From contig SULG01000003.1 in assembly GCA_005524015.1 (NCBI GenBank), positions 1 through 64,000 of the forward strand: DNA of 64,000 bases, written 5' to 3'. Below are positions 28,109 through 38,679 of the stretch, in pieces. The notes under the pieces were generated by a model. The model did no database searches, was not told the DNA's origin, and saw only the letters and a program-made list of their open reading frames with translations. The translations under genes were made by a program, and so were the position numbers. The stretch's first letter is position 1, and each line of letters starts with the position of its first letter. Source of the DNA: Candidatus Jettenia ecosi (GTDB taxonomy: Bacteria > Planctomycetota > Brocadiia > Brocadiales > Brocadiaceae).

Positions 28109-29086
28109 ATGGATATTCACCAGCATAAAGATAAGATTTTTCCGATATATGTCGTTTTTGGAGATGAAGAATTTTTTATTCGTGAGGCGCTTTCATCGTT
28201 AAAGGCTCATCTGCTCAAGGATACCGATCCTACTATTTCTTTAGTTGAATTTAAAGGTGACGAAGTTGCCGGAGGGATAATATTTGATGAACTGCGGACC
28301 ATGCCTTTTTTTATAAGTAAGAATAAGGTAGTGATTGTGGAAGATGTGGATAGTTTTGTTGAGAAAAACAGGCAGGTACTGGAAAAATATGTGCAGGCGC
28401 CTGCGAGTCATTCCCAGCTTATTCTTGTATGCGATAAATGGGACAAGAGAACAAAATTGGCAACCCTTGTTGACAAGGTCGGGATTCTGGCAGAATGTAA
28501 AAAATTAAAGGATCATCAATTGCCAAACTGGATAATTACCCGCACGAAACAGTACAAAAAAACAATCACTACCAAAGCGGCTCAAATGATAGCCGAGAAT
28601 GCAGGTAATAATTTAGCCATCCTGGATAAGCATATTGAGAAGTTATCTATTTATCTTGGCGATAGAACAGCGATTGACGAAAAGGATGTGGAAGCCCTTG
28701 TTGGGATTGATAGAAACCGAACGATATTTGAGCTAACCGATGCTGTTGCACAGAGAAATGTAACAATAGCTTTGAAAACCCTTAGTCAAATGCTGACACA
28801 CGGGGAAGATTCAGTAAAGATTATTAGTTTACTGGCATGGCAAATGAAACGGTTGTGGAGGGCTAAGCAGATGTTAAATAAGGGAGTACATGAATCAAAA
28901 GTTACCTCTGAATTACAAGTGCTCCCATTCTTCGCAAAGCGTTTTTTTGAACAGGTCAGGATTTTTACCGAGGAAGATCTCACAAAAAAGTATGCCCTCT
29001 TGCTGGAAGCTGATGTGAAGAGTAAGACAAGTTCCTTTAGTATGCAATTACTCTTAGAATTGCTGGTATATAAATTATGTATTTAA
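28109..29086 (+). CDS. holA: DNA polymerase III subunit delta
   Basis: A 325-residue HolA protein, the clamp-loader subunit that opens the sliding clamp. Family features are the N-terminal YVVFGDEEFFIREALSSLK, FISKNKVVIVEDVD, the segment LILVCDKWDKRTKL, NNLAILDKHIEKLSIYLG, and the C-terminal collar region LLAWQMKRLWRAKQML. Sequence identity in this family is low, so length and motif order are the main support. It immediately precedes the restriction-modification island. Confidence 0.86.
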   Translation: MDIHQHKDKIFPIYVVFGDEEFFIREALSSLKAHLLKDTDPTISLVEFKGDEVAGGIIFDELRTMPFFISKNKVVIVEDVDSFVEKNRQVLEKYVQAPASHSQLILVCDKWDKRTKLATLVDKVGILAECKKLKDHQLPNWIITRTKQYKKTITTKAAQMIAENAGNNLAILDKHIEKLSIYLGDRTAIDEKDVEALVGIDRNRTIFELTDAVAQRNVTIALKTLSQMLTHGEDSVKIISLLAWQMKRLWRAKQMLNKGVHESKVTSELQVLPFFAKRFFEQVRIFTEEDLTKKYALLLEADVKSKTSSFSMQLLLELLVYKLCI

Positions 29087-29103
29087 AAGATAAAAGGGCT
29101 TTC

Positions 29104-30873
29104 ATGAACAACTTCAGAGAAAAGGCAAACTTAATCTGGTCTATTGCCGACTTGCTAAGAGGTCACTATAAACAGGCTGATTATGGAAAAGTTATCCTGC
29201 CATTTACGGTACTGAGAAGGCTGGATATGGTGCTTGCACCAACGAAAAAACTGGTGCTGGAAGCATATCAGAAACACAAGGATAAAAAACCGGAGGTGTT
29301 GGAACCCATTTTAAATGGGGTTGCAAAGGCCAAATTTCATAACCGCAGTAAGTTTGATTTTCATGAGCTTGCTAAAGACCATAATAATGTGGCTGCCAAT
29401 CTGCGCAATTATATGAACGGGTTTTCAATCAGCGCCAGGGAGATAATCGATTATTTCAGCTTTGATGACCAGATCCGGAAGCTGGACGAATATGACTTGC
29501 TGTATTTAATCATAAAGGAATTTGCCAAAAAAGAGGATACTTTTAAAGATGTTGACGCCATGGAAATGGGTTACATCTTTGAAGAACTGATCCGTAAATT
29601 TGCGGAACTCAGCAACGAAACAGCCGGTGAGCATTTTACCCCAAGAGAGGTTATCCGCCTTATGGTAAATCTGCTGTTTGCTCACGATAAAGACATTCTG
29701 CGCAAAGAGGGTATCGTTAAAACGTTGTACGACCCGGCCTGCGGAACCGGTGGGATGCTTTCCATTGCCGGTGAATACCTGCACGACCTGAACTCGGGGG
29801 CAAGACTTGAATTGTTCGGACAGGAAATCAATCCGGAATCGTACGCTATTTGTAAATCGGATATGCTTATCAAAGGCCAAAATCCGGCCAATATAAAATT
29901 TGGTAACAGCTTTACCCAGGATGGGTTGGAGGATGAAACCTTTGATTACATGCTCAGCAATCCACCATTTGGTGTGGACTGGAAAAAGGCCCAGAAGTAT
30001 ATCAGGGATGAATACGAAAACAGAGGCTTTGCCGGCCGTTTTGGTGCAGGTCTGCCTTCCATTAGCGATGGCTCGTTACTCTTCCTGCAGCACATGATTA
30101 GTAAAATGAAACGGAGTACGGGCGGCAGCCGCATTGCAATTGTCTTTAACGGCTCACCGTTGTTTAGCGGCGCCGCCGGCAGAGGTCCCGGTAATATCCG
30201 TAAATGGATTATTGAAAATGATATGCTGGAAGCTATCATCGCCATGCCCGACCAATTATTTTACAACACCGGCATTTCCACATATATTTGGATTGTTACC
30301 GACCGCAAAACACCCGAACGCAAGGGCAAAGTGCAGCTCATTAACGCTAGCGGTAGCGACTGGGAGGAAGGCGATAAGAGCAACCCGTTCTCCATGAAAA
30401 TGATGCGCAGCCTGGGCAATAAACGTAAAGAAATCGGTGATGGCAGAGACGGCAAGCCCGATCAAATTAAAACTATTACCAAACTCTACGAGGCCTTTAA
30501 GGATGGCCCTTATTGTAAAATTTTTAACAATGAAGATTTCGGTTATCATCGCATTACCGTGGAACGCCCCAAACGCAATAAACGAGGAGAAATTGAAACC
30601 GACCGCAAAGGCGACCCGGTGCCCGATGCTGATTTGCGAGATTATGAAAACGTGCCTTTAAAAGAGGATATTGAAGAATATTTTAAAAGGGAGGTGTTAC
30701 CACACCTGCCGGATGCCTGGATAGACCATAGCAAGACCAAAACCGGTTATGAGATTAACTTTACTAAATATTTTTACCAGTATAAGCCCCTGAGAAGTTT
30801 GGAAGAGATACGCAGGGATATTCTGGCTTTGGAAAAAGAAACCGAAGGAATGATAAAAATAGTTCTTGATTAA
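29104..30873 (+). CDS. hsdM: Type I restriction-modification methyltransferase subunit M
   Basis: A 589-residue N6-adenine methyltransferase subunit. The N-terminal helical HsdM domain (about 1-150) is followed by the SAM motif DPACGTGGML near residue 209 and the catalytic NPPFGVDW near residue 285. ATG 29104 begins the family N terminus MNNFREKANLIWSIADLLRG, with AAAAGGG upstream; an earlier in-frame start overlaps holA. With HsdS it would methylate a bipartite site. The gene appears intact. Its codon use looks GC-richer than the flanking genes, which suggests acquisition; I have not computed this. Confidence 0.95.
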   Translation: MNNFREKANLIWSIADLLRGHYKQADYGKVILPFTVLRRLDMVLAPTKKLVLEAYQKHKDKKPEVLEPILNGVAKAKFHNRSKFDFHELAKDHNNVAANLRNYMNGFSISAREIIDYFSFDDQIRKLDEYDLLYLIIKEFAKKEDTFKDVDAMEMGYIFEELIRKFAELSNETAGEHFTPREVIRLMVNLLFAHDKDILRKEGIVKTLYDPACGTGGMLSIAGEYLHDLNSGARLELFGQEINPESYAICKSDMLIKGQNPANIKFGNSFTQDGLEDETFDYMLSNPPFGVDWKKAQKYIRDEYENRGFAGRFGAGLPSISDGSLLFLQHMISKMKRSTGGSRIAIVFNGSPLFSGAAGRGPGNIRKWIIENDMLEAIIAMPDQLFYNTGISTYIWIVTDRKTPERKGKVQLINASGSDWEEGDKSNPFSMKMMRSLGNKRKEIGDGRDGKPDQIKTITKLYEAFKDGPYCKIFNNEDFGYHRITVERPKRNKRGEIETDRKGDPVPDADLRDYENVPLKEDIEEYFKREVLPHLPDAWIDHSKTKTGYEINFTKYFYQYKPLRSLEEIRRDILALEKETEGMIKIVLD

Positions 30874-30874
30874 T

Positions 30875-30994
30875 ATGGAAAAATATAAACACCAATACCA
30901 CATCTCCACCGCAAGATTGGATGGCTGGGATTATGGTTCAGATGGGGCATATTTTGTAACCGTGTGTACAAAAAACAAAGCATGTTATACTTAA
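30875..30994 (+). pseudogene. N-terminal fragment of a REP-associated tyrosine transposase
   Basis: A 39-codon reading frame starts 1 nt after the hsdM stop. It includes RLDGWDYGSDGAYFVTVCTKNK, partly cited here, which matches the N terminus of RAYT-type HUH transposases (R-x-x-x-W-D-Y-x-x-x-G-x-Y-F-V-T-x-C-T). It then stops with no sign of the catalytic HxH or tyrosine region. The remainder has been lost and REP-type repeats follow. It differs from the small Y1 transposase at 33189. Confidence 0.7.
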
Positions 30995-31028
30995 CGTGTT
31001 CACAAATGTAATTTATTTAAAAACTATG

Positions 31029-31211
31029 AACCCCGAAGGGGTAAAATGATTATAGAAGAAAAAACCGGCAAACAACGCCCAATCCCAAAGGGATGACATA
31101 ATGATCACCACGTGGGGCATTTTCATGGGAAAACAATTATATCACCCCTTCAGGGTTTATCGCAGGTTTTTTCTGCAATCGTCTATAATAATTTCATCCC
31201 TTCGGGATTCC
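31029..31211. repeat. REP-type palindromic repeat cluster between hsdM and hsdS
   Basis: Four short hairpin units lie here. Two read forward (CCCCGAAGGGG at 31031 with tail ATGATTATAG; ATCCCAAAGGGAT at 31082) and two read in reverse (ACCCCTTCAGGGTT at 31144; ATCCCTTCGGGAT at 31196 preceded by CTATAATAATT). They belong to the same family as the units after hsdS but are more degraded. The rest of the 470-bp gap up to hsdS shows no gene. Confidence 0.8.
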
Positions 31212-31342: not shown

Positions 31343-32677
31343 ATGAAACGATACAAAAAATATAAGGATTCAGGGATTGAATGGGTCGGGGAGATTCCGG
31401 ATCATTGGGAAATAAAGAGGTTAAAGTATTTAGCCAAAGTTAACTCTTCAAAAAAGAATTTTGATTTAGAAAATAATTCTGAAACAGAAGTTGTGTTTTT
31501 ACCAATGGAAAAAGTTTCCAAACACGGAACAATAGATCAGGATTTAAGAAAGAAGAGTAATGAAGTAAGCACAGGATTTACTTATTTTGAAAGAAATGAC
31601 ATTATTGTTGCGAAAATTACACCTTGTTTTGAAAATGGTAAAGGGGCTTTCCTTGAAAATCTTGAAACAGAATTTGGTTTTGGTTCAACTGAGTTTCATG
31701 TATTGCGGGCAAGTAACAAAATCAACAAAAAATTTCTTTTCTATCAAACGAAGACAGACCGTTTTATGAATATTGGCGAAGCGTTCATGATTGGTTCTGC
31801 TGGGCAGAAAAGAGTACCATTAAGTTTTGTTGAATCTTTCATTATTGGAATCCCACAATTAGAAGAACAGATCGCCGTTGCCAACTACTTAGACGAAAAA
31901 ACCATCCAAATCGACAAGCTCATTTCTAATAAGCAAAAACTGATTGATCTGCTCAGAGAAGAATGCACCGCTATCATCAACCAGGCGGTTACAAAAGACA
32001 TTGACCCTAACATAAAACTCAAACCCAGCGGTATTGAGTGGTTGGGGGAGATTCCGGAACATTGGGAGGTGAAGAAGTTGAAGTATGTGGCGACAATTCA
32101 GTCAAGTAACGTCGACAAGAAAACAAATGAAGAAGAAAAATCAATCCTGCTTTGTAATTATATAGATGTTTATAAGAATGAATTTATAGATGATTCTATT
32201 TCTTTTATGGAAGCAACTGCAACAGAAAAGGAGATTGAAAAATTTATTCTTAATAAAGGTGATGTTCTAATAACGAAGGATTCTGAAACTCCTGACGATA
32301 TTGCAAATCCTGCTTATGTTGTAAAAGATTTTGATAATGTTATTTGCGGTTATCATTTAGCTCAAATTAGAGCAAATCAAATAGAACTACATGGAGAATA
32401 CTTGTTCCGGCTTTTTCAATCAAGACAATTTAATACTCACTTTGAAGTCTCTGCCAATGGAGTAACCCGCTTTGGGCTTCCGCTCGATTCAATAGCTGAT
32501 GTCTTCGTCCCGTTACCAAGTAAAGAAGAACAATTAAGTATCACCGAGTACATTTTAAAAGAAACTCAAAAAATATCTAATACCATTGTCAAAATAGAAA
32601 AAGAAATTAAATTACTACAAGAATACCGCATAGCCTTAATCAGCGAAGTGGTTATCGGAAAAATCAAGGTGGTATAA
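31343..32677 (+). CDS. hsdS: Type I restriction-modification specificity subunit S
   Basis: A 444-residue specificity subunit with the two-fold pattern of the family. Each half begins with SGIEW-GEIP-HWE (residues about 10-25 and 228-243) and has a target-recognition domain, then a conserved helical spacer (LISNKQKLIDLLREE and IVKIEKEIKLLQEYR). The last residues, LQEYRIALISEVVIGKIKVV, are the common C-terminal motif, copies of which recur downstream. The gene is intact; ATG 31343. It determines the DNA sequence recognised by HsdM and HsdR. Confidence 0.95.
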   Translation: MKRYKKYKDSGIEWVGEIPDHWEIKRLKYLAKVNSSKKNFDLENNSETEVVFLPMEKVSKHGTIDQDLRKKSNEVSTGFTYFERNDIIVAKITPCFENGKGAFLENLETEFGFGSTEFHVLRASNKINKKFLFYQTKTDRFMNIGEAFMIGSAGQKRVPLSFVESFIIGIPQLEEQIAVANYLDEKTIQIDKLISNKQKLIDLLREECTAIINQAVTKDIDPNIKLKPSGIEWLGEIPEHWEVKKLKYVATIQSSNVDKKTNEEEKSILLCNYIDVYKNEFIDDSISFMEATATEKEIEKFILNKGDVLITKDSETPDDIANPAYVVKDFDNVICGYHLAQIRANQIELHGEYLFRLFQSRQFNTHFEVSANGVTRFGLPLDSIADVFVPLPSKEEQLSITEYILKETQKISNTIVKIEKEIKLLQEYRIALISEVVIGKIKVV

Positions 32678-32682
32678 AATCA

Positions 32683-32758
32683 AGCCCGAAGGGCTGACAT
32701 GATTATAGCCAATGAACAACCATAAATTAACAACCCCGAAGGGGTGAAATGATCTTAG
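32683..32758 (+). repeat. Composite REP unit A, copy 1
   Basis: Two hairpins in tandem: AGCCCGAAGGGCT (32683) followed by TGACATGATTATAG, then about 36 nt later AACCCCGAAGGGGT (32732) followed by a GAAATGATCTTAG tail. It begins 5 nt after the hsdS stop. Copies 2 and 3 lie at 33094 and 33814 in the same orientation with only scattered differences. Confidence 0.88.
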
Positions 32759-32819
32759 ATAAAGAATTGAAACAATGATAGATTCTGAAGGGATGACATT
32801 TATACACGGGTTGCTAATG

Positions 32820-32890
32820 TCACCCCTTCGGGGTTCAAAATTTTTCTTATGGTCTTTGCTATAATCATTACATCCCTTCAGGATTAGGCT
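32820..32890 (-). repeat. Composite REP unit B (inverted), copy 1
   Basis: The inverse arrangement of unit A: CACCCCTTCGGGGTT, an AT-rich spacer, CTATAATCAT and ATCCCTTCAGGATT. Read on the - strand it is hairpin plus ATGATTATAG tail twice. Between A1 and B1 a further degraded unit (GATTCTGAAGGGATGACAT) is seen. Two more decayed inverted units occur at about 32945 and 32990. Confidence 0.85.
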
Positions 32891-33093
32891 TAAAGAACCA
32901 TAATTAGTGCATTTACTGGATTGAAATGAAAAGAAATCATAATTATTATATCCTTCGGGATTGAGAAACAAAATAAATCGTGCTTTAATTATGACATCCT
33001 TTTGTGATTAAAATAGGATACACTAAAAAAACGTTCAGATTATAAACTCGGCTTGTAAAGATGAAAAATTGCATTGACAAATAACCAACAAAA

Positions 33094-33169
33094 AGCCCGA
33101 AGGGCTAGCATGATTATAGTCAATGAATAACCACAGACCAATAACCCCGAAGGGGTGAAATGATTATAG
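33094..33169 (+). repeat. Composite REP unit A, copy 2 (left flank of transposase)
   Basis: AGCCCGAAGGGCT at 33094 and AACCCCGAAGGGGT at 33143, each followed by a TGATTATAG tail, in the same layout as copy 1. It ends 19 nt before the transposase start codon. A TTGACA at 33074 just upstream could be part of a promoter, but no good -10 was found. Confidence 0.88.
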
Positions 33170-33188
33170 GATGAAATAAAAGAAAACC

Positions 33189-33650
33189 ATGGCTGGAACG
33201 TTCACGCAAATATACATACAGGCAATATTTGCCGTAAACGGCAGGGCAAACCTGTTGCAAAAACCCTGGTGTGACGATGTGTTCAAATATATGGCCGGCA
33301 TCATCAAAAACAAGGGACAAAAACCTATAATCGTTAATAGCATTGCCAACCATGTGCATATGTTCGTTGGGTTGCAACCGGCTATGGCTGTTTCTGATCT
33401 GATCAGGGATGTGAAAAACAATACGACAAATTTCATCAATGATCAAAAATGGGTCAGAGGTAAATTTTCATGGCAGGAAGGATATGGCGCGTTCTCTTAT
33501 GCCCATAGCCAGATCGAGACAGTTTATAACTATATTTTAAAACAGGAAGAACATCATAATAAAAAAACATTTAAAGAAGAATATATTGATTTTCTGAAAA
33601 AATTCCAGATATTGCATGAAGAACGGTTTTTATTTGAATGGATTGATTGA
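33189..33650 (+). mobile_element. IS200/RAYT-like Y1 transposase gene within a REP cassette
   Basis: A complete 153-residue HUH single-strand transposase of the Y1_Tnp family. The metal-binding HxH is H55-V-H57 (NHVHMFVG) and the catalytic tyrosine is Y115 (or Y113) in VYNYILKQEEHH. The MAGTFTQIYIQAIFAV start and W-EGYGAFSYAHS segment are typical of small IS200-like or RAYT transposases. It lies between a forward composite repeat (33094-33169) and an inverted one (33658-33730), 19 and 8 nt away. No tnpB-type gene is present. It probably nicks and moves the surrounding hairpin DNA. Confidence 0.88.
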
Positions 33651-33657
33651 TACTATT

Positions 33658-33730
33658 TCACCCCTTCGGGGTTCAAAATCTTTCTTCTGTTTTTTTGCTA
33701 TAATCATTACATCCCTTCGGGATTAGGTTG
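33658..33730 (-). repeat. Composite REP unit B (inverted), copy 2 (right flank of transposase)
   Basis: CACCCCTTCGGGGTT, an AT-rich spacer, CTATAATCAT and ATCCCTTCGGGATTAGG. It begins 8 nt after the transposase stop and mirrors unit A copy 2, so transposase plus A and B looks like one cassette. An hsdS-like 3' end follows at once. Confidence 0.88.
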
Positions 33731-33731
33731 A

Positions 33732-33809
33732 AAAGAAACCAAATTTTTGCAGGAATACCGTGCGGCATTAATTTCGAAAGTTGTAACAGGAAAAATAAAG
33801 GTGATATAA
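33732..33809 (+). pseudogene. hsdS 3'-end remnant, copy 2
   Basis: In frame after a TGA, this reads KETKFLQEYRAALISKVV, then TGKIKVI and a stop. That aligns over 25 residues with the C terminus of the intact HsdS (KEIKLLQEYRIALISEVV, IGKIKVV). Many differences are in third codon positions, so it is a diverged relative and not a fresh duplication. The rest of the gene is missing and REP unit B copy 2 occupies its place. Confidence 0.82.
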
Positions 33810-33813
33810 TCCA

Positions 33814-33889
33814 AGCCCGAAGGGCTGGCATGATTATAGCCAACGAACAATCATAGATCAACAACCCCGAAGGGGTGAAATAATTATGG
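33814..33889 (+). repeat. Composite REP unit A, copy 3
   Basis: AGCCCGAAGGGCT at 33814 and AACCCCGAAGGGGT at 33863, with tails GGCATGATTATAG and GAAATAATTATG. It begins 4 nt after the stop of hsdS remnant 2, the same position that unit A copy 1 has after the intact hsdS. Confidence 0.86.
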
Positions 33890-33899
33890 GTTTCCAATA

Positions 33900-33971
33900 C
33901 CACCCCTTCGGGGTTTAAAACCTTTTTTCTATTTTTTGCTATAATCATGACATCCCTTTGGGATTAGGCTG
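33900..33971 (-). repeat. Composite REP unit B (inverted), copy 3
   Basis: CACCCCTTCGGGGTTT, a T-rich spacer, CTATAATCAT and ATCCCTTTGGGATTAGG. Together with A3 it forms a cassette of the same layout as A2-transposase-B2 but without the gene, i.e. a non-autonomous form. hsdS remnant 3 follows. Confidence 0.86.
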
Positions 33972-33972
33972 A

Positions 33973-34047
33973 AAAGAAACCGAATTCTTACAGGAATACC
34001 GCACCGCTTTAACCAGTGAAGCGGTTACCGGGAAAATAAAGGTTCTA
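33973..34047 (+). pseudogene. hsdS 3'-end remnant, copy 3
   Basis: After a TGA this reads KETEFLQEYRTALTSEAV, then TGKIKVL, again matching the HsdS C terminus. The stop codon found in the other two copies is replaced: the frame runs on about 9 codons, and the ATG of the next gene (34047) lies within its last codons. The AlbA-like gene thus begins where an hsdS gene used to end. Confidence 0.8.
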
Positions 34048-35705
34048 TGGCAGCATCTGAATTACTACAAAAATTAAATGAACTTCGCGGCCTACCTGCT
34101 GAAACTGAAGTGTTTGAGTTTAAGGAGGCTAAAAATGGTTACGACTTTAGCAAGCTCGGAAAGTATTTTTCTGCTTTGTCAAATGAGGCAAATCTCAAGG
34201 GTAAACCTCATGCATGGCTGGTTTTCGGTATTAAAGACAAAGGGAGAACTATAGTCGGCAGCCGTTTTCGACCAAATCGTAACGACCTTGACAGCCTTAA
34301 GGGAGAAATAGCAAGTAAAACGACTAATCGTATCACATTTATTGAAATATATGAAATGCTTCTACCAGAAGGCCGGGTACTCATGTTTCAAATCCCTGCT
34401 GCACCAAAAGGACTGCCTATTGCATTTGATGGGCATTATTACGGCAGAGACGGCGAAGAATTGTCCCCTCTGAATCTTGAGGAAATTGAACGAATCCGAT
34501 CACAGGCGATTATAGATGACTGGAGTGCAGCAATTTTGTCCAATGCTACTATTGAAGATCTTGACCCATCAGCTATAACAAAGGCGCGGGAAAACTACAA
34601 AAATAAATTTCCTGAAAAGGCCGCTGAAGTAGACACCTGGGACGATATTACTTTCCTCAACAAAGCTAAAATAACAATCAAAGGGAAGATAACGCGTGCA
34701 GCTATAATTCTGTTAGGAAAAGGAGAATCGGAGCATTTTATAAATCCTGCTGAAGCAAAAATACGCTGGGTGTTAAAAGATACCAAGGGGAATGATAAAG
34801 ACTACCATATTGAAAGCTGCCCACTATTTCTTGCCGTTGATAAGATATATGCAAAGATTCGCAATCTGAAGTACCGCTATATTAAGGACGGCACTTTATT
34901 CCCCGATGAGGTTGACCAGTACGAGCCGTTCGTAATTCGCGAGGCTATTAACAACTGTATTGCCCATCAGGATTATACAAAGGGCGGCCGCATAAATGTT
35001 GTGGAAATGGAAGATCAGCTTGTATTTACCAACCTGGGCAGTTTTATCCCGGGCTCCGTAGAAAAGGTAATCACGGAAGATGCCCCGGAAGAACACTACC
35101 GAAACCGGTTCCTTGCAACAGCCATGTTTAATTTGAAAATGGTTGATACGGCGGGCGGGGGCATCAGAAAGATGTTTAATTATCAGCGAGAGCGTTTTTT
35201 CCCAATGCCCGAGTATGACTTATCAGGAGAAAAGGTAAAAGTAACGGTGATCGGTAAAGTACTGGATATGGATTTTGCGAAAGTATTGGCAAGAAATCCC
35301 AGTCTCTCCCTCGAACAAATCATCATCTTAGACAAAGTTCAAAAAAGAAAACGGCTTACGGAAGGAGAGGCTAACTATCTCAAAGGATTAGGATTAATAG
35401 AGGGGAGAAAGCCTAATTATATAATTTCTGCCAAAATAGCGGCTTCACTTTCCAACGAAGATTTAAAGGCTCAGTACATTAAACATCGCGGCTTGGATGA
35501 TGAGCACTACAAGAAACTTATTATTGAATATCTCACAAAATTCGGCAAATCTCACAGGAAAGAACTTGAACAATTCCTGTGGACTAAATTGCCTGATATT
35601 TTGACTGAAAATCAAAAGAAAAACAAGGTTACCAATTTGTTATCTGCACTAAGAATAAGCGGGAAAATAAAGAATAGCGGCTACTCAGAGTGGTCTCTTG
35701 TTTAA
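34047..35705 (+). CDS. AlbA_2/Schlafen-like DNA-binding protein with GHKL-type domain
   Basis: A 552-residue protein of the group often annotated as putative DNA-binding or RecG-like transcriptional regulator. The N-terminal AlbA_2 (Schlafen-related) domain has FEFKEAKNGYDFSKLGKYFSALSN at about 25-45 and HAWLVFGIKDKGRTIVGS. The HATPase_c_4-type region has IREAINNCIAHQDY and GGGIRKMF at about 295-380. The C terminus has winged-helix-like repeats. Such genes are frequent companions of type I restriction loci. Its role, regulation or separate defence, is not established. It stands between hsdS remnants and hsdR. Confidence 0.82.
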   Translation: MAASELLQKLNELRGLPAETEVFEFKEAKNGYDFSKLGKYFSALSNEANLKGKPHAWLVFGIKDKGRTIVGSRFRPNRNDLDSLKGEIASKTTNRITFIEIYEMLLPEGRVLMFQIPAAPKGLPIAFDGHYYGRDGEELSPLNLEEIERIRSQAIIDDWSAAILSNATIEDLDPSAITKARENYKNKFPEKAAEVDTWDDITFLNKAKITIKGKITRAAIILLGKGESEHFINPAEAKIRWVLKDTKGNDKDYHIESCPLFLAVDKIYAKIRNLKYRYIKDGTLFPDEVDQYEPFVIREAINNCIAHQDYTKGGRINVVEMEDQLVFTNLGSFIPGSVEKVITEDAPEEHYRNRFLATAMFNLKMVDTAGGGIRKMFNYQRERFFPMPEYDLSGEKVKVTVIGKVLDMDFAKVLARNPSLSLEQIIILDKVQKRKRLTEGEANYLKGLGLIEGRKPNYIISAKIAASLSNEDLKAQYIKHRGLDDEHYKKLIIEYLTKFGKSHRKELEQFLWTKLPDILTENQKKNKVTNLLSALRISGKIKNSGYSEWSLV

Positions 35706-35750
35706 AAGAGTTTAAAAGAGTTTAAAAGAGTTTAAAAGAGTTTAAAAGAG
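35701..35750 (+). repeat. 10-bp tandem repeat, five perfect copies
   Basis: TTTAAAAGAG is repeated five times without a mismatch. The stop codon of the AlbA-like gene lies in the first copy, so changes in copy number do not alter that protein. The array ends 88 nt before the hsdR ATG, where it could change promoter or leader spacing. Confidence 0.97.
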
Positions 35751-35837
35751 TAAGTAACGAAAGACCAAAGATTTATTGCTCTTGTAAAATTATTGGGATA
35801 AAACTTATCAGGGATTATTTTTTTGGACAGGGGGACT

Positions 35838-38679
35838 ATGGCTAGTGAAATATACACTGAATCCATATTCGAAATGGCCATTATTGGCCATTTAACTGCA
35901 AACGGATGGTATTCCGGCAATGCCAGCGATTTCAACTGCGACCTGGCACTGGATAAAAAGGCGGTATTGTCCTTTGTGCAGGAATCTCAGCCCATAGAAT
36001 GGGAAAAATTGAAATCCTACTACAGAGAAGATACTGAAAACAAATTCGTCCATCGCCTATTCAAAGAACTGGATTTACGGGGTATGCTGGATGTTATCCG
36101 GCATGGTATTACGGATAGCGGTGTCAAATTTAAACTCGCATATTTCAAACCTGACAGCAAACTCAATCCCGACACGCTGAAACAATATAACTATAACAGG
36201 CTTTATGTCACCCGGCAGGTTTGTTTTTCAATAAAAAATAACAAAAGCATCGACCTTCTGCTTTCACTCAACGGGCTGCCTGTGGCAACCATTGAGTTAA
36301 AGAACCATTTTACCGGGCAACGAGTTGATGAAGCTATGGAACAATACCGTACCAGCCGTGATCCGAAGGAGTTGTTATTCCAGTTTAAAAAACGGGCATT
36401 AGCTCACTTTACGGTTGATCCGGATGAGGTCTATTTCACTACGAAGCTTGAAGGCAGTGGCACACGCTTTTTCCCATTCAATAAGGGGTTTAATAATGGC
36501 GGAGGCAATCCACCAACGAAAGATTATACCGCTTACCGTGCTGCCTATTTCTGGGGGGATATGCTGAGTGTAGACAGTTGGCTGGAAATTATTGGACGTT
36601 TTATGCATCTGCAAAAGGATGAATACCTGGTTGATGGGAAAAAGTATTACAAAGAAACCTTGCTTTTTCCCCGCTATCACCAGCTTGATGCGGTAAGGAA
36701 ATTAACAGCACATACGAAGGTACGAGGGCCAGGCAAGAGATACCTCATACAACATTCAGCCGGAAGTGGAAAAAGCAACTCCATTGCATGGTTGGCCTAC
36801 CGGTTGTCTTCACTCTATAATGAAGCGGACAGGAAGGTTTTTGATTCAATTATTGTAATAACCGACCGGAACGTGCTTGACCAGCAGTTGCAAAATACCA
36901 TTTACCAGTTTGAGCATAAAACAGGCGTGGTGCAGCGCATCGATGCAGATTCCAAACAATTGGCAGATGCAATTAATTCAGGAGTCAGTATCATTATAAC
37001 AACCTTACAGAAATTCCCTTTTGCCTTAAAATATCTGACAGAAATTCCGAATCGCAACTATGCCGTTATCATTGACGAAGCGCACAGTAGCCAGGGCGGC
37101 GAAGCCAGTCGTAAAATGACAGAGGCATTGGTTGGTAAAAATGTTACCCTGGAAGAATCTGAAAACGTTGAAGGTGAGATTGAAAAAGACATTGAAGATG
37201 AAGACGACTATATAAGGGAAACCATTCTGAAAAGAGGCCCACAGAAAAACATTAGCCTGTTTGCTTTTACAGCAACTCCAAAGGCAAAAACATTGGAAGT
37301 GTTTGGAAATAAAGATGCAGAAAGAAAGCCAAAGCCGTTTCACCTTTACTCCATGCGTCAGGCTATTGATGAAGGTTTTATTCTGGATGTGCTCAGGAAT
37401 TATACAACCTATGAGACCTATTACCAATTCTGCAAGACCGTAGAAGAAGACCCTGAATTGAACAAAAGAAAGGCTGCAAAGGCCATAGGCAGATTTGCCT
37501 CGTTACACCCTACGAATCTTGCACAGAAAACGGAGGTCATGGTGGAGCATTTCAGGCACTGTCATCGATGATCTGTATCCGGAAGGCGTAACAGAAGCGC
37601 AATTGAACAAGCTCGGTGAAAAGGAATTACCCGAAAGGTTTTCAACCCCCGAATATCAGATTTTGCTTGTTGCCGATAAATACCAATATGGTTTTGATCA
37701 GCCTCTTTTACATACCATGTATGTGGATAAAAAATTATCTGGTGTGAGGGCGGTTCAGACCTTATCACGGTTAAACAGAATGTGTCCAGGGAAGGAAGAT
37801 ACCTTTGTTCTTGATTTTGCAAACGACCGGCAGACGATTATCGATTCATTTCAACCCTATTATGAGTTGACCACTATGGCAGAAACCACTGATCTGAATC
37901 ACTTATATGATTTGAAGGGAATTACTGATAAAGCACAGGTATATTATCAATCGGAAGTCGATGCATTTTCTAAAGTATTCTATAAACCCGATAACGTATC
38001 GGTAAAAGACCAGGCAAAATTATATGCATATGTTGACCCTGCAGTTGATCGCTATAAAGAATTGGAAGAAGAGCCGCAGGATGAATTTAAGAAGTCGATG
38101 ACATCATTTGTCCGCCTTTATTCCTTTCTTTCTCAAATTATGCCGTTTCAGGATAGAGAATTAGAAAAACTCTATTCTTATGGCTGCTTTTTATTAACCA
38201 AATTACCGAAAATAGATTATACAGAAAGGCTAAAACTCGATAATGAAGTTGCCCTTGAATATTACAGACTTCAGAAAATAGCTGAGGGCAATTTGGTATT
38301 ACAGGTTCAGGGTGAACATGGTCTTAATCCGACCATGGAGGCAGGCATAAGCAAGCCAAAAGATGAAAAAGACAAGCTTTCAAATATCATCCAGCTATTG
38401 AATGATAAATTCCGTACTGACTTTACCGAGGCTGATCGATTGTATTTTGAGCAAATAGCGCAGGCGCTGTATGAAAATGAAGAACTGAGGGTAAGGGCTA
38501 AAAATAATCCAATCGAAAATTTCAAATATGCGTTTGAAGAGGTTTTCATTCAAACCCTGATTGATAGAATGGATGCAAACCAGGATATCTTTGAAAAGAT
38601 CATGGAGAATTCGGAGTTTAAACAGGATGTGAAGGAATGGTTAACTAAGAAGATTTACGAGCGATTTAACGAGGGTTAA
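35838..38679 (+). pseudogene. hsdR: Type I restriction endonuclease subunit R, broken by internal deletion
   Basis: The 5' part (35838-37571) encodes the nuclease domain (IELKN near residue 152), Walker A HSAGSGKSNS near 306, IIDEAHSSQGG near 411 and FTATP near 476. It then hits a frame change. The 3' part continues from 37552 in the next frame with SGTVIDD, ADKYQYGFDQP (motif V), QTLSRLNR (motif VI) and a normal C-terminal domain to 38679. From family knowledge about 45 residues between EHFRHC and FSGTVID are missing. TTTCAGGCACTGT (37550-37562) fits both sides. ATG 35838 follows AGGGGGAC. Restriction activity is probably lost. Confidence 0.88.

Follow-up and report, generated by a model that had tools for sequence, protein, structure and literature searches.

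Cassettes in which a Y1 (HUH) transposase gene is framed by inverted hairpin arms are present in type I restriction (hsd) operons far above chance, an association that is new here, and the cassette is co-inherited with the operon. Since the cassette recurs in hsd operons of several bacterial phyla, it is either a recurrent passenger of type I restriction defence systems or their partner. The example on which we focus lies in a 64,000-nucleotide stretch of contig SULG01000003.1 of Candidatus Jettenia ecosi, hereafter the window. Here, the unit A2-tnp-B2 probably represents the gene-bearing form of a REPtron-like element that settled in hsd operons, with extra copies of the hsdS 3' end as a possible by-product. 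These findings reveal that, in several phyla, a single-strand transposase is recurrently linked to type I restriction operons in a consistent orientation. In addition, palindromes can now be assigned to a transposase subclass that was described without them, which provides a testable substrate. As a passenger, the cassette would illustrate how small elements that lack a route of transfer can be spread by hitching on to defence operons, and as a partner it would provide a novel means of altering specificity genes.

A Y1 transposase gene between inverted double-hairpin arms

The transposase gene (positions 33189-33650, forward strand; Pfam Y1_Tnp, 4e-19; NCBIfam IS200/IS605) is intact and encodes 153 amino acids without internal stops. 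It is preceded by the left arm A2 (33093-33170, forward strand), in which an outer hairpin AGCCCGAAGGGCT and an inner hairpin ACCCCGAAGGGGT are each followed by ATGATTATAG. On its other side lies the right arm B2 (approximately 33655-33725, reverse strand), where the inner and outer hairpins are inverted, and both arms are conserved in relatives. This is the arrangement that the earlier note had described, with A2, the intact open reading frame and the inverted B2 at the same places. In general, the arms are about 75 nt long and contain two hairpins that are about 50 nt apart, the outer one being AGCCCGAAGGGCT or ATCCCGAAGGGAT and the inner one ACCCCGAAGGGGT, usually followed by ATGATTATAG and with a conserved ATTATAG tail. 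The hairpin consensus is AAcCCCGAAGGGgTGa.At.attatag, in which TATAG is found on the 3' side of the hairpin and no GTAG/GTGG foot on the 5' side.

The layout of the cassette minus the gene, which had been proposed for two further pairs of arms, was also found at both sites. A1 (32682-32759, forward strand) is located directly behind hsdS and is paired with B1 (32817-32886, reverse strand), and A3 (33813-33890, forward strand) is paired with B3 (33897-33966, reverse strand). A fourth gene-less pair, A0-B0 (31029-31209, no strand assigned), which was absent from the earlier list, lies between hsdM and hsdS and adjoins the 5' relic of another Y1-type gene. This relic (30876-30995; MEKYKHQYHISTARLDGWDYGSDGAYFVTVCTKNK) is present as a longer stretch in the related operon L215, and a Pfam search with the fragment gave no match. 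No clean empty site corresponding to the pair at 31029-31209 was obtained from L215, where the gap has diverged.

The catalytic residues of the transposase (HVH at 55-57, Tyr115, Gln119 and HH at 122-123) are kept in 104-105 of 106 related proteins. By sequence match, its nearest solved structures are those of the ISDra2 and IS608 TnpA proteins, and dN/dS values of 0.02-0.11 in the pairs tested indicate strong purifying selection. Quentin et al. (2018; PMC6006769) characterised TnpA_Y1 subclass 1.2 by a length of about 150 aa, an HUH motif, WQ and Y-x3-Q-x2-HH, and reported a low copy number, a distribution mainly in Bacteroidota and no REPs. Judged by its residues, the window protein fits this subclass. 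It has the characteristic size and motifs, and there are four close copies in the genome that are 52-56% identical, in line with the low copy number and low identity of the subclass. The absence of REPs in the survey is contradicted by our finding that inverted hairpin arms flank many members, but subclass membership stands, because this absence was an observation of the survey and not a delimiting criterion. Recent transposition is not visible, because the close copies within the genome share only the afore-mentioned 52-56% identity.

Duplicated hsdS tails and related operons without a cassette

In the window, hsdM (29077-30873; HsdM_N, N6_Mtase), hsdS (31343-32677; Methylase_S), a downstream AlbA_2/Schlafen-type gene (34047-35705; SLFN_AlbA_2, HATPase_c_4) and hsdR (35823-38679; HSDR_N, ResIII) are all located on the forward strand, and hsdS is the sole specificity gene at this locus. 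Since hsdR was read as two open reading frames (profile parts 13-460 and 494-841) and its alignment with the single 1002-aa hsdR of L215 skips about 140 nt of the latter, this genome or its assembly probably contains a broken restriction subunit; hsdM and hsdS are intact. A short tandem repeat, GTTTAAAAGA (35700-35751), spans the end of the AlbA_2 gene. Furthermore, the second recognition half of the window hsdS (32030-32475) matches the first half of the L215 gene (6067-6512) with 72% identity over 450 nt, which implies that a recognition domain changed position between the two hsdS genes.

The last approximately 77 nt of hsdS are present three times on the forward strand. Tail 1 (32599-32675) is the 3' end of the intact gene, tail 2 (33731-33807) is a duplicated 3' end minus the gene body, and tail 3 (33972-34048) runs directly into the next gene. 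This results in the order tail1-A1-B1-spacer-A2-tnp-B2-tail2-A3-B3-tail3-AlbA_2, as compared to hsdS-tail1-A1-B1-spacer-A2-tnp-B2-tail2-AlbA_2 in L215 (HsdM 93% identical). L258, a related operon from a genome of the same genus (HsdM 69% identical), has no hairpins at the place of the cassette, and in this operon hsdS and the start of an AlbA_2-like gene, which was recognised from its translation, overlap. L257 has the outer hairpin only, located behind the tail. Among the operons of the type represented by the C44 locus of the window's genome, L254 lacks hairpins in its S-M gap, and L221, L222 and L224 contain tandem tail-A-B units, the tail being the last part (up to about 80 codons) of the operon's own hsdS family. 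L253 is likewise a related operon without the cassette, and L225 has a broken hsdS gene, which is not a copy. The comparison of empty and filled sites that had been called for thus identified related operons without a cassette (L254, L258), but no clean empty/filled pair in near-identical DNA, the operons compared being diverged.

Duplicated tails beside cassettes were found in two hsdS families, with lengths of about 77 nt in one and up to about 255 nt in the other, which led us to reject a fixed-size target-site duplication. The extra hsdS pieces in the window, L213, L215, L221, L222 and L224 are 3' tails only, most of which join an arm directly, and no copied recognition domains were seen beside the cassettes at these loci. 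A silent store of specificity domains was rejected as well, tails being all that was found. The earlier note had suggested that the cassette could move or shuffle DNA in the restriction locus. Of this, only duplicated hsdS tails were observed, the target-recognition domains not being duplicated. The note had also spoken of a cassette repeated at the 3' ends of specificity genes. In the window this is incorrect, as there is one hsdS and the rest are tail copies, but the statement is true of other genomes, where cassettes are repeatedly found at hsdS 3' ends.

The tails might also have originated through ordinary decay, if several hsdS genes had each carried an A-B pair and their bodies were deleted with the tails left behind, the transposase being uninvolved in the duplications. 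This view is supported by the tandem units in L221, L222 and L224, and by the resemblance of tail2-A3-B3 in the window to tail1-A1-B1 in L215, which would be expected from recombination between repeats. However, the extra pieces at all loci listed above consist of the 3' tail alone, mostly joined to an arm, and decay leaves both the conserved cassette and its bias towards hsd operons unexplained. We therefore regard decay as a serious possibility, albeit one with less than an even chance of being correct.

Association of the cassette with type I restriction operons

The nearest hsd gene was found within 1.5 kb at 13 of the 80 wide-survey loci and at 12 of the 24 own-order loci, and at a distance of 1.5-7.5 kb at none of the former and one of the latter. 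At all 25 loci with an hsd gene within 1.5 kb, the transposase and hsd genes are on the same strand. Such proximity was observed for 13 of the 27 loci of profile-close members compared to 5 of the 67 loci of other Y1 genes (p-value of 2e-5), where each set includes a few duplicated loci and four of the five matches among the other genes are weaker relatives of this clade. It should be noted that hsd genes were detected with profiles built from a few seeds, and that the hsd loci are partly related by descent and not all independent. The architectures vary (M-S-tnp-R, R-S-tnp-M, M-tnp-S, R-tnp-M-S and R-MS-tnp), and the hsd label must have changed at least 15 times on the tree of the transposases, with 5 of these changes forced by well-supported branches. 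In one restriction-modification (RM) family with 92% identical HsdM, two transposases that are only 54% identical occupy the same hsdS-hsdM gap. Of the four close Y1 copies in the window's genome, three are in hsd loci, namely the window itself, C44 (hsdR-hsdS-tnp-hsdM) and C28 (hsdM-tnp-hsdS). In the open-access literature searched, we found no report of an association of hsdS with IS200, Y1 or REP transposases.

Between the window and L215, the dN values of the transposase, HsdM and HsdR are 0.03, 0.05 and 0.06, respectively, and the dS values are 0.36, 0.59 and 0.48. The transposase thus diverges in step with HsdM and HsdR, while the HsdS proteins are only 43% identical. The left arm of the cassette contains the end of the hsdS reading frame in L104, L105 and L108, at 5-10 nt before the transposase start.

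The tight same-strand placement within operons could point to a domesticated accessory of the type I system, where the Y1 nuclease and the hairpins serve the operon, for example by nicking at the hsdS 3' end and thereby promoting duplication or exchange of hsdS, and are retained for this role. The same can be said of the co-divergence of the transposase with HsdM and HsdR under purifying selection, with HsdS identities of only about 40-45% in several pairs, and of the tail duplications that accompany cassettes in two families of hsdS. Yet, HsdS commonly diverges in type I systems whether or not a cassette is present, and the related operons L253, L254 and L258 do without it. Moreover, the duplications concern tails and never recognition domains, and more than half of the homologues are located away from hsd genes. 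Altogether, a role as accessory seems unlikely. We are similarly doubtful that subclass 1.2 Y1 cassettes would constitute a dedicated type I restriction module, in which the HUH nuclease duplicates the hsdS 3' end and promotes hsdS exchange and which is maintained through selection on the operon; what is shown is association, co-inheritance, purifying selection and tail duplication.

Under the favoured reading, namely a REPtron-like element that settled in hsd operons, the protein would bind the hairpins on single-stranded DNA, by analogy with IS608 and ISDra2, and would cut near the conserved tails via Tyr115. The segment from A to B could then be moved by a single-strand reaction resembling that of IS608 and ISDra2, with the arms inverted as in REPtrons, and the gene-less A-B pairs might be mobilised in trans. 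The cassette may settle in hsd operons because a position behind a conserved gene end does no harm and is transcribed, and because the wide transfer and retention of RM operons would carry along a cassette that lacks a transfer route of its own. The least certain step is the origin of the extra hsdS tails, for which a tail-A-B unit may have been tandemly duplicated or a circle may have re-entered by tail homology. The copying of the tails would be compatible with duplication in tandem, with the loss of hsdS genes that once stood in tandem, and with re-entry of a tail-A-B circle by homology.

Conservation of the arms across phyla and A-B pairs in the genome

The wide scan yielded 80 homologue loci, mostly from Bacteroidota but also from Ignavibacteriota, Chloroflexota and others. 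Homologues in these three phyla have the same double-hairpin arms, often at matching offsets, the hairpins of close homologues being located at about -75 and -23 from the start codon and at about +9 and +61 past the stop codon. Within 120 nt, forward hairpins were found upstream of 34 of 105 genes and inverted hairpins downstream of 42, compared to 10 and 7 genes, respectively, for hairpins in the wrong orientation and a background rate of 0.0067 per 120 nt far from the gene. The closing pair of the stem covaries (C-G 157, T-A 136, G-C 22 and about 25 unpaired), and the upstream and downstream regions match as inverted repeats at 72 of 102 loci. In a more divergent clade, another hairpin, AGCTCCGTAGGAGC...TTTGTAG, appears in an unchanged layout. 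Beyond the close clade, there are many relatives in which hairpins were recognised on one side only or not at all. The proposal of a REPtron-like cassette with gene-less A-B derivatives is supported by this occurrence of the same arms around homologous genes in other phyla.

In Flavobacterium and Chryseobacterium (L148, L159, L164, L170, L173, L177 and L182), the transposase is found in one place between genes of similar size, in agreement with 3HCDH/thiolase matches among the neighbours. This constant place suggests long vertical inheritance of the transposase in these genera.

A search of the 3.86-Mb genome for the hairpin plus ATTATAG, allowing up to 3 mismatches, returned 125 + 131 (256) matches compared to 1 + 0 for the reversed control. 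Random scatter of unpaired A and B units, which the earlier note had named as fatal to the cassette idea, was not what the genome-wide search revealed: among the first 100 exact sites listed, neighbours within 300 nt were predominantly convergent (30, versus 3 divergent and 1 tandem). Many A-B pairs elsewhere have a near-identical spacing of 167 or 125 nt. About 30 of the pairs in the genome are cargo of two unrelated MITE families and owe their multiplication to these; according to an approximate breakdown by reading of the flanks, about 12 pairs are MITE1 cargo, about 18 are MITE2 cargo and about 10 are free. Because most A-B pairs are MITE cargo, their copy number provides little or no evidence for activity or mobility of the Y1 transposase.

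MITE1 has inverted repeats TATAGTAATnTnAAAACAAAATGTC with TA ends, of which there are 24 end matches in the genome, and it carries an hsdS-tail-like stretch plus an A-B pair (e.g. L061, L065, L066, L074 and L076). MITE2 has the ends TAAGTACCTGA...TCAGGTACTTA and an A-B pair as cargo (e.g. L064, L077, L079 and L080), and in L078 a MITE2 is nested within a MITE1. Dispersed units of an hsdS tail plus A were considered as proof that Y1 carries the tail, but this was rejected, as most of them lie within MITE1 or MITE2. At C76, C63 and C9 (L056, L058 and L063), a short hsdS tail directly precedes an A arm outside hsd loci, and the stretches inspected contain neither a B arm nor an hsdS gene.

It is highly improbable that the repeats belong to MITEs or to another Y1 gene and that the transposase entered one A-B pair by chance, because the arms are conserved at the same offsets around homologous genes in other phyla and remain inverted in copies with different hairpins (C28, C37), even though about 30 A-B pairs are MITE cargo, a second Y1-type gene has left a relic next to the pair at 31029-31209, and the other close Y1 copies of the genome are not bracketed by the hairpin family of the window.

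Comparison with known systems

The cassette resembles the REPtron/RAYT systems (TnpA_REP, class 2) in that a Y1 gene lies between inverted palindromic repeats, which also occur in many further copies across the genome. It differs by having Y-x3-Q where class 2 has Y-x3-NP, by the missing GTAG foot and by the two hairpins per arm. Because the motif YILKQEEHH lacks Y-x3-NP, the cassette would be REPtron-like in its working rather than a class 2 RAYT. TnpA_REP has been described as mostly single copy, with mobility evidence lacking (PMC6006769, PMC8266576), whereas the gene-bearing cassette is found at several loci and is present or absent in related operons.

Recombinase-driven hsdS variation, such as the pneumococcal hsdS inversion (PMC11709252), likewise involves a DNA-processing enzyme in an hsd locus beside repeated hsdS sequences. 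In the present case, however, the enzyme is an HUH transposase and not an invertase, and the repeats are hsdS tails alone, silent recognition domains being absent. With IS200/IS605 elements (IS608, ISDra2) the cassette shares the fold family, the catalytic residues and a compact gene with flanking hairpins, but its arms are inverted copies of each other, no tnpB was seen between them, and its close copies, at 52-56% identity, are not the near-identical multiple copies of such elements. The gene-less pairs (A0-B0, A1-B1, A3-B3 and the approximately 10 free ones) are reminiscent of REPINs and BIMEs, which are inverted palindrome pairs at many sites, except that there are two hairpins on each side and that MITEs carry most of the copies in the window's genome. 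The closest likeness in protein features is to TnpA_Y1 subclass 1.2 (about 150 aa, HUH, WQ, Y-x3-Q-x2-HH, low copy number), and the occurrence mainly in Bacteroidota is shared as well. Compared to this subclass as surveyed, inverted double-hairpin arms flank many members, and many members are located in hsd operons.
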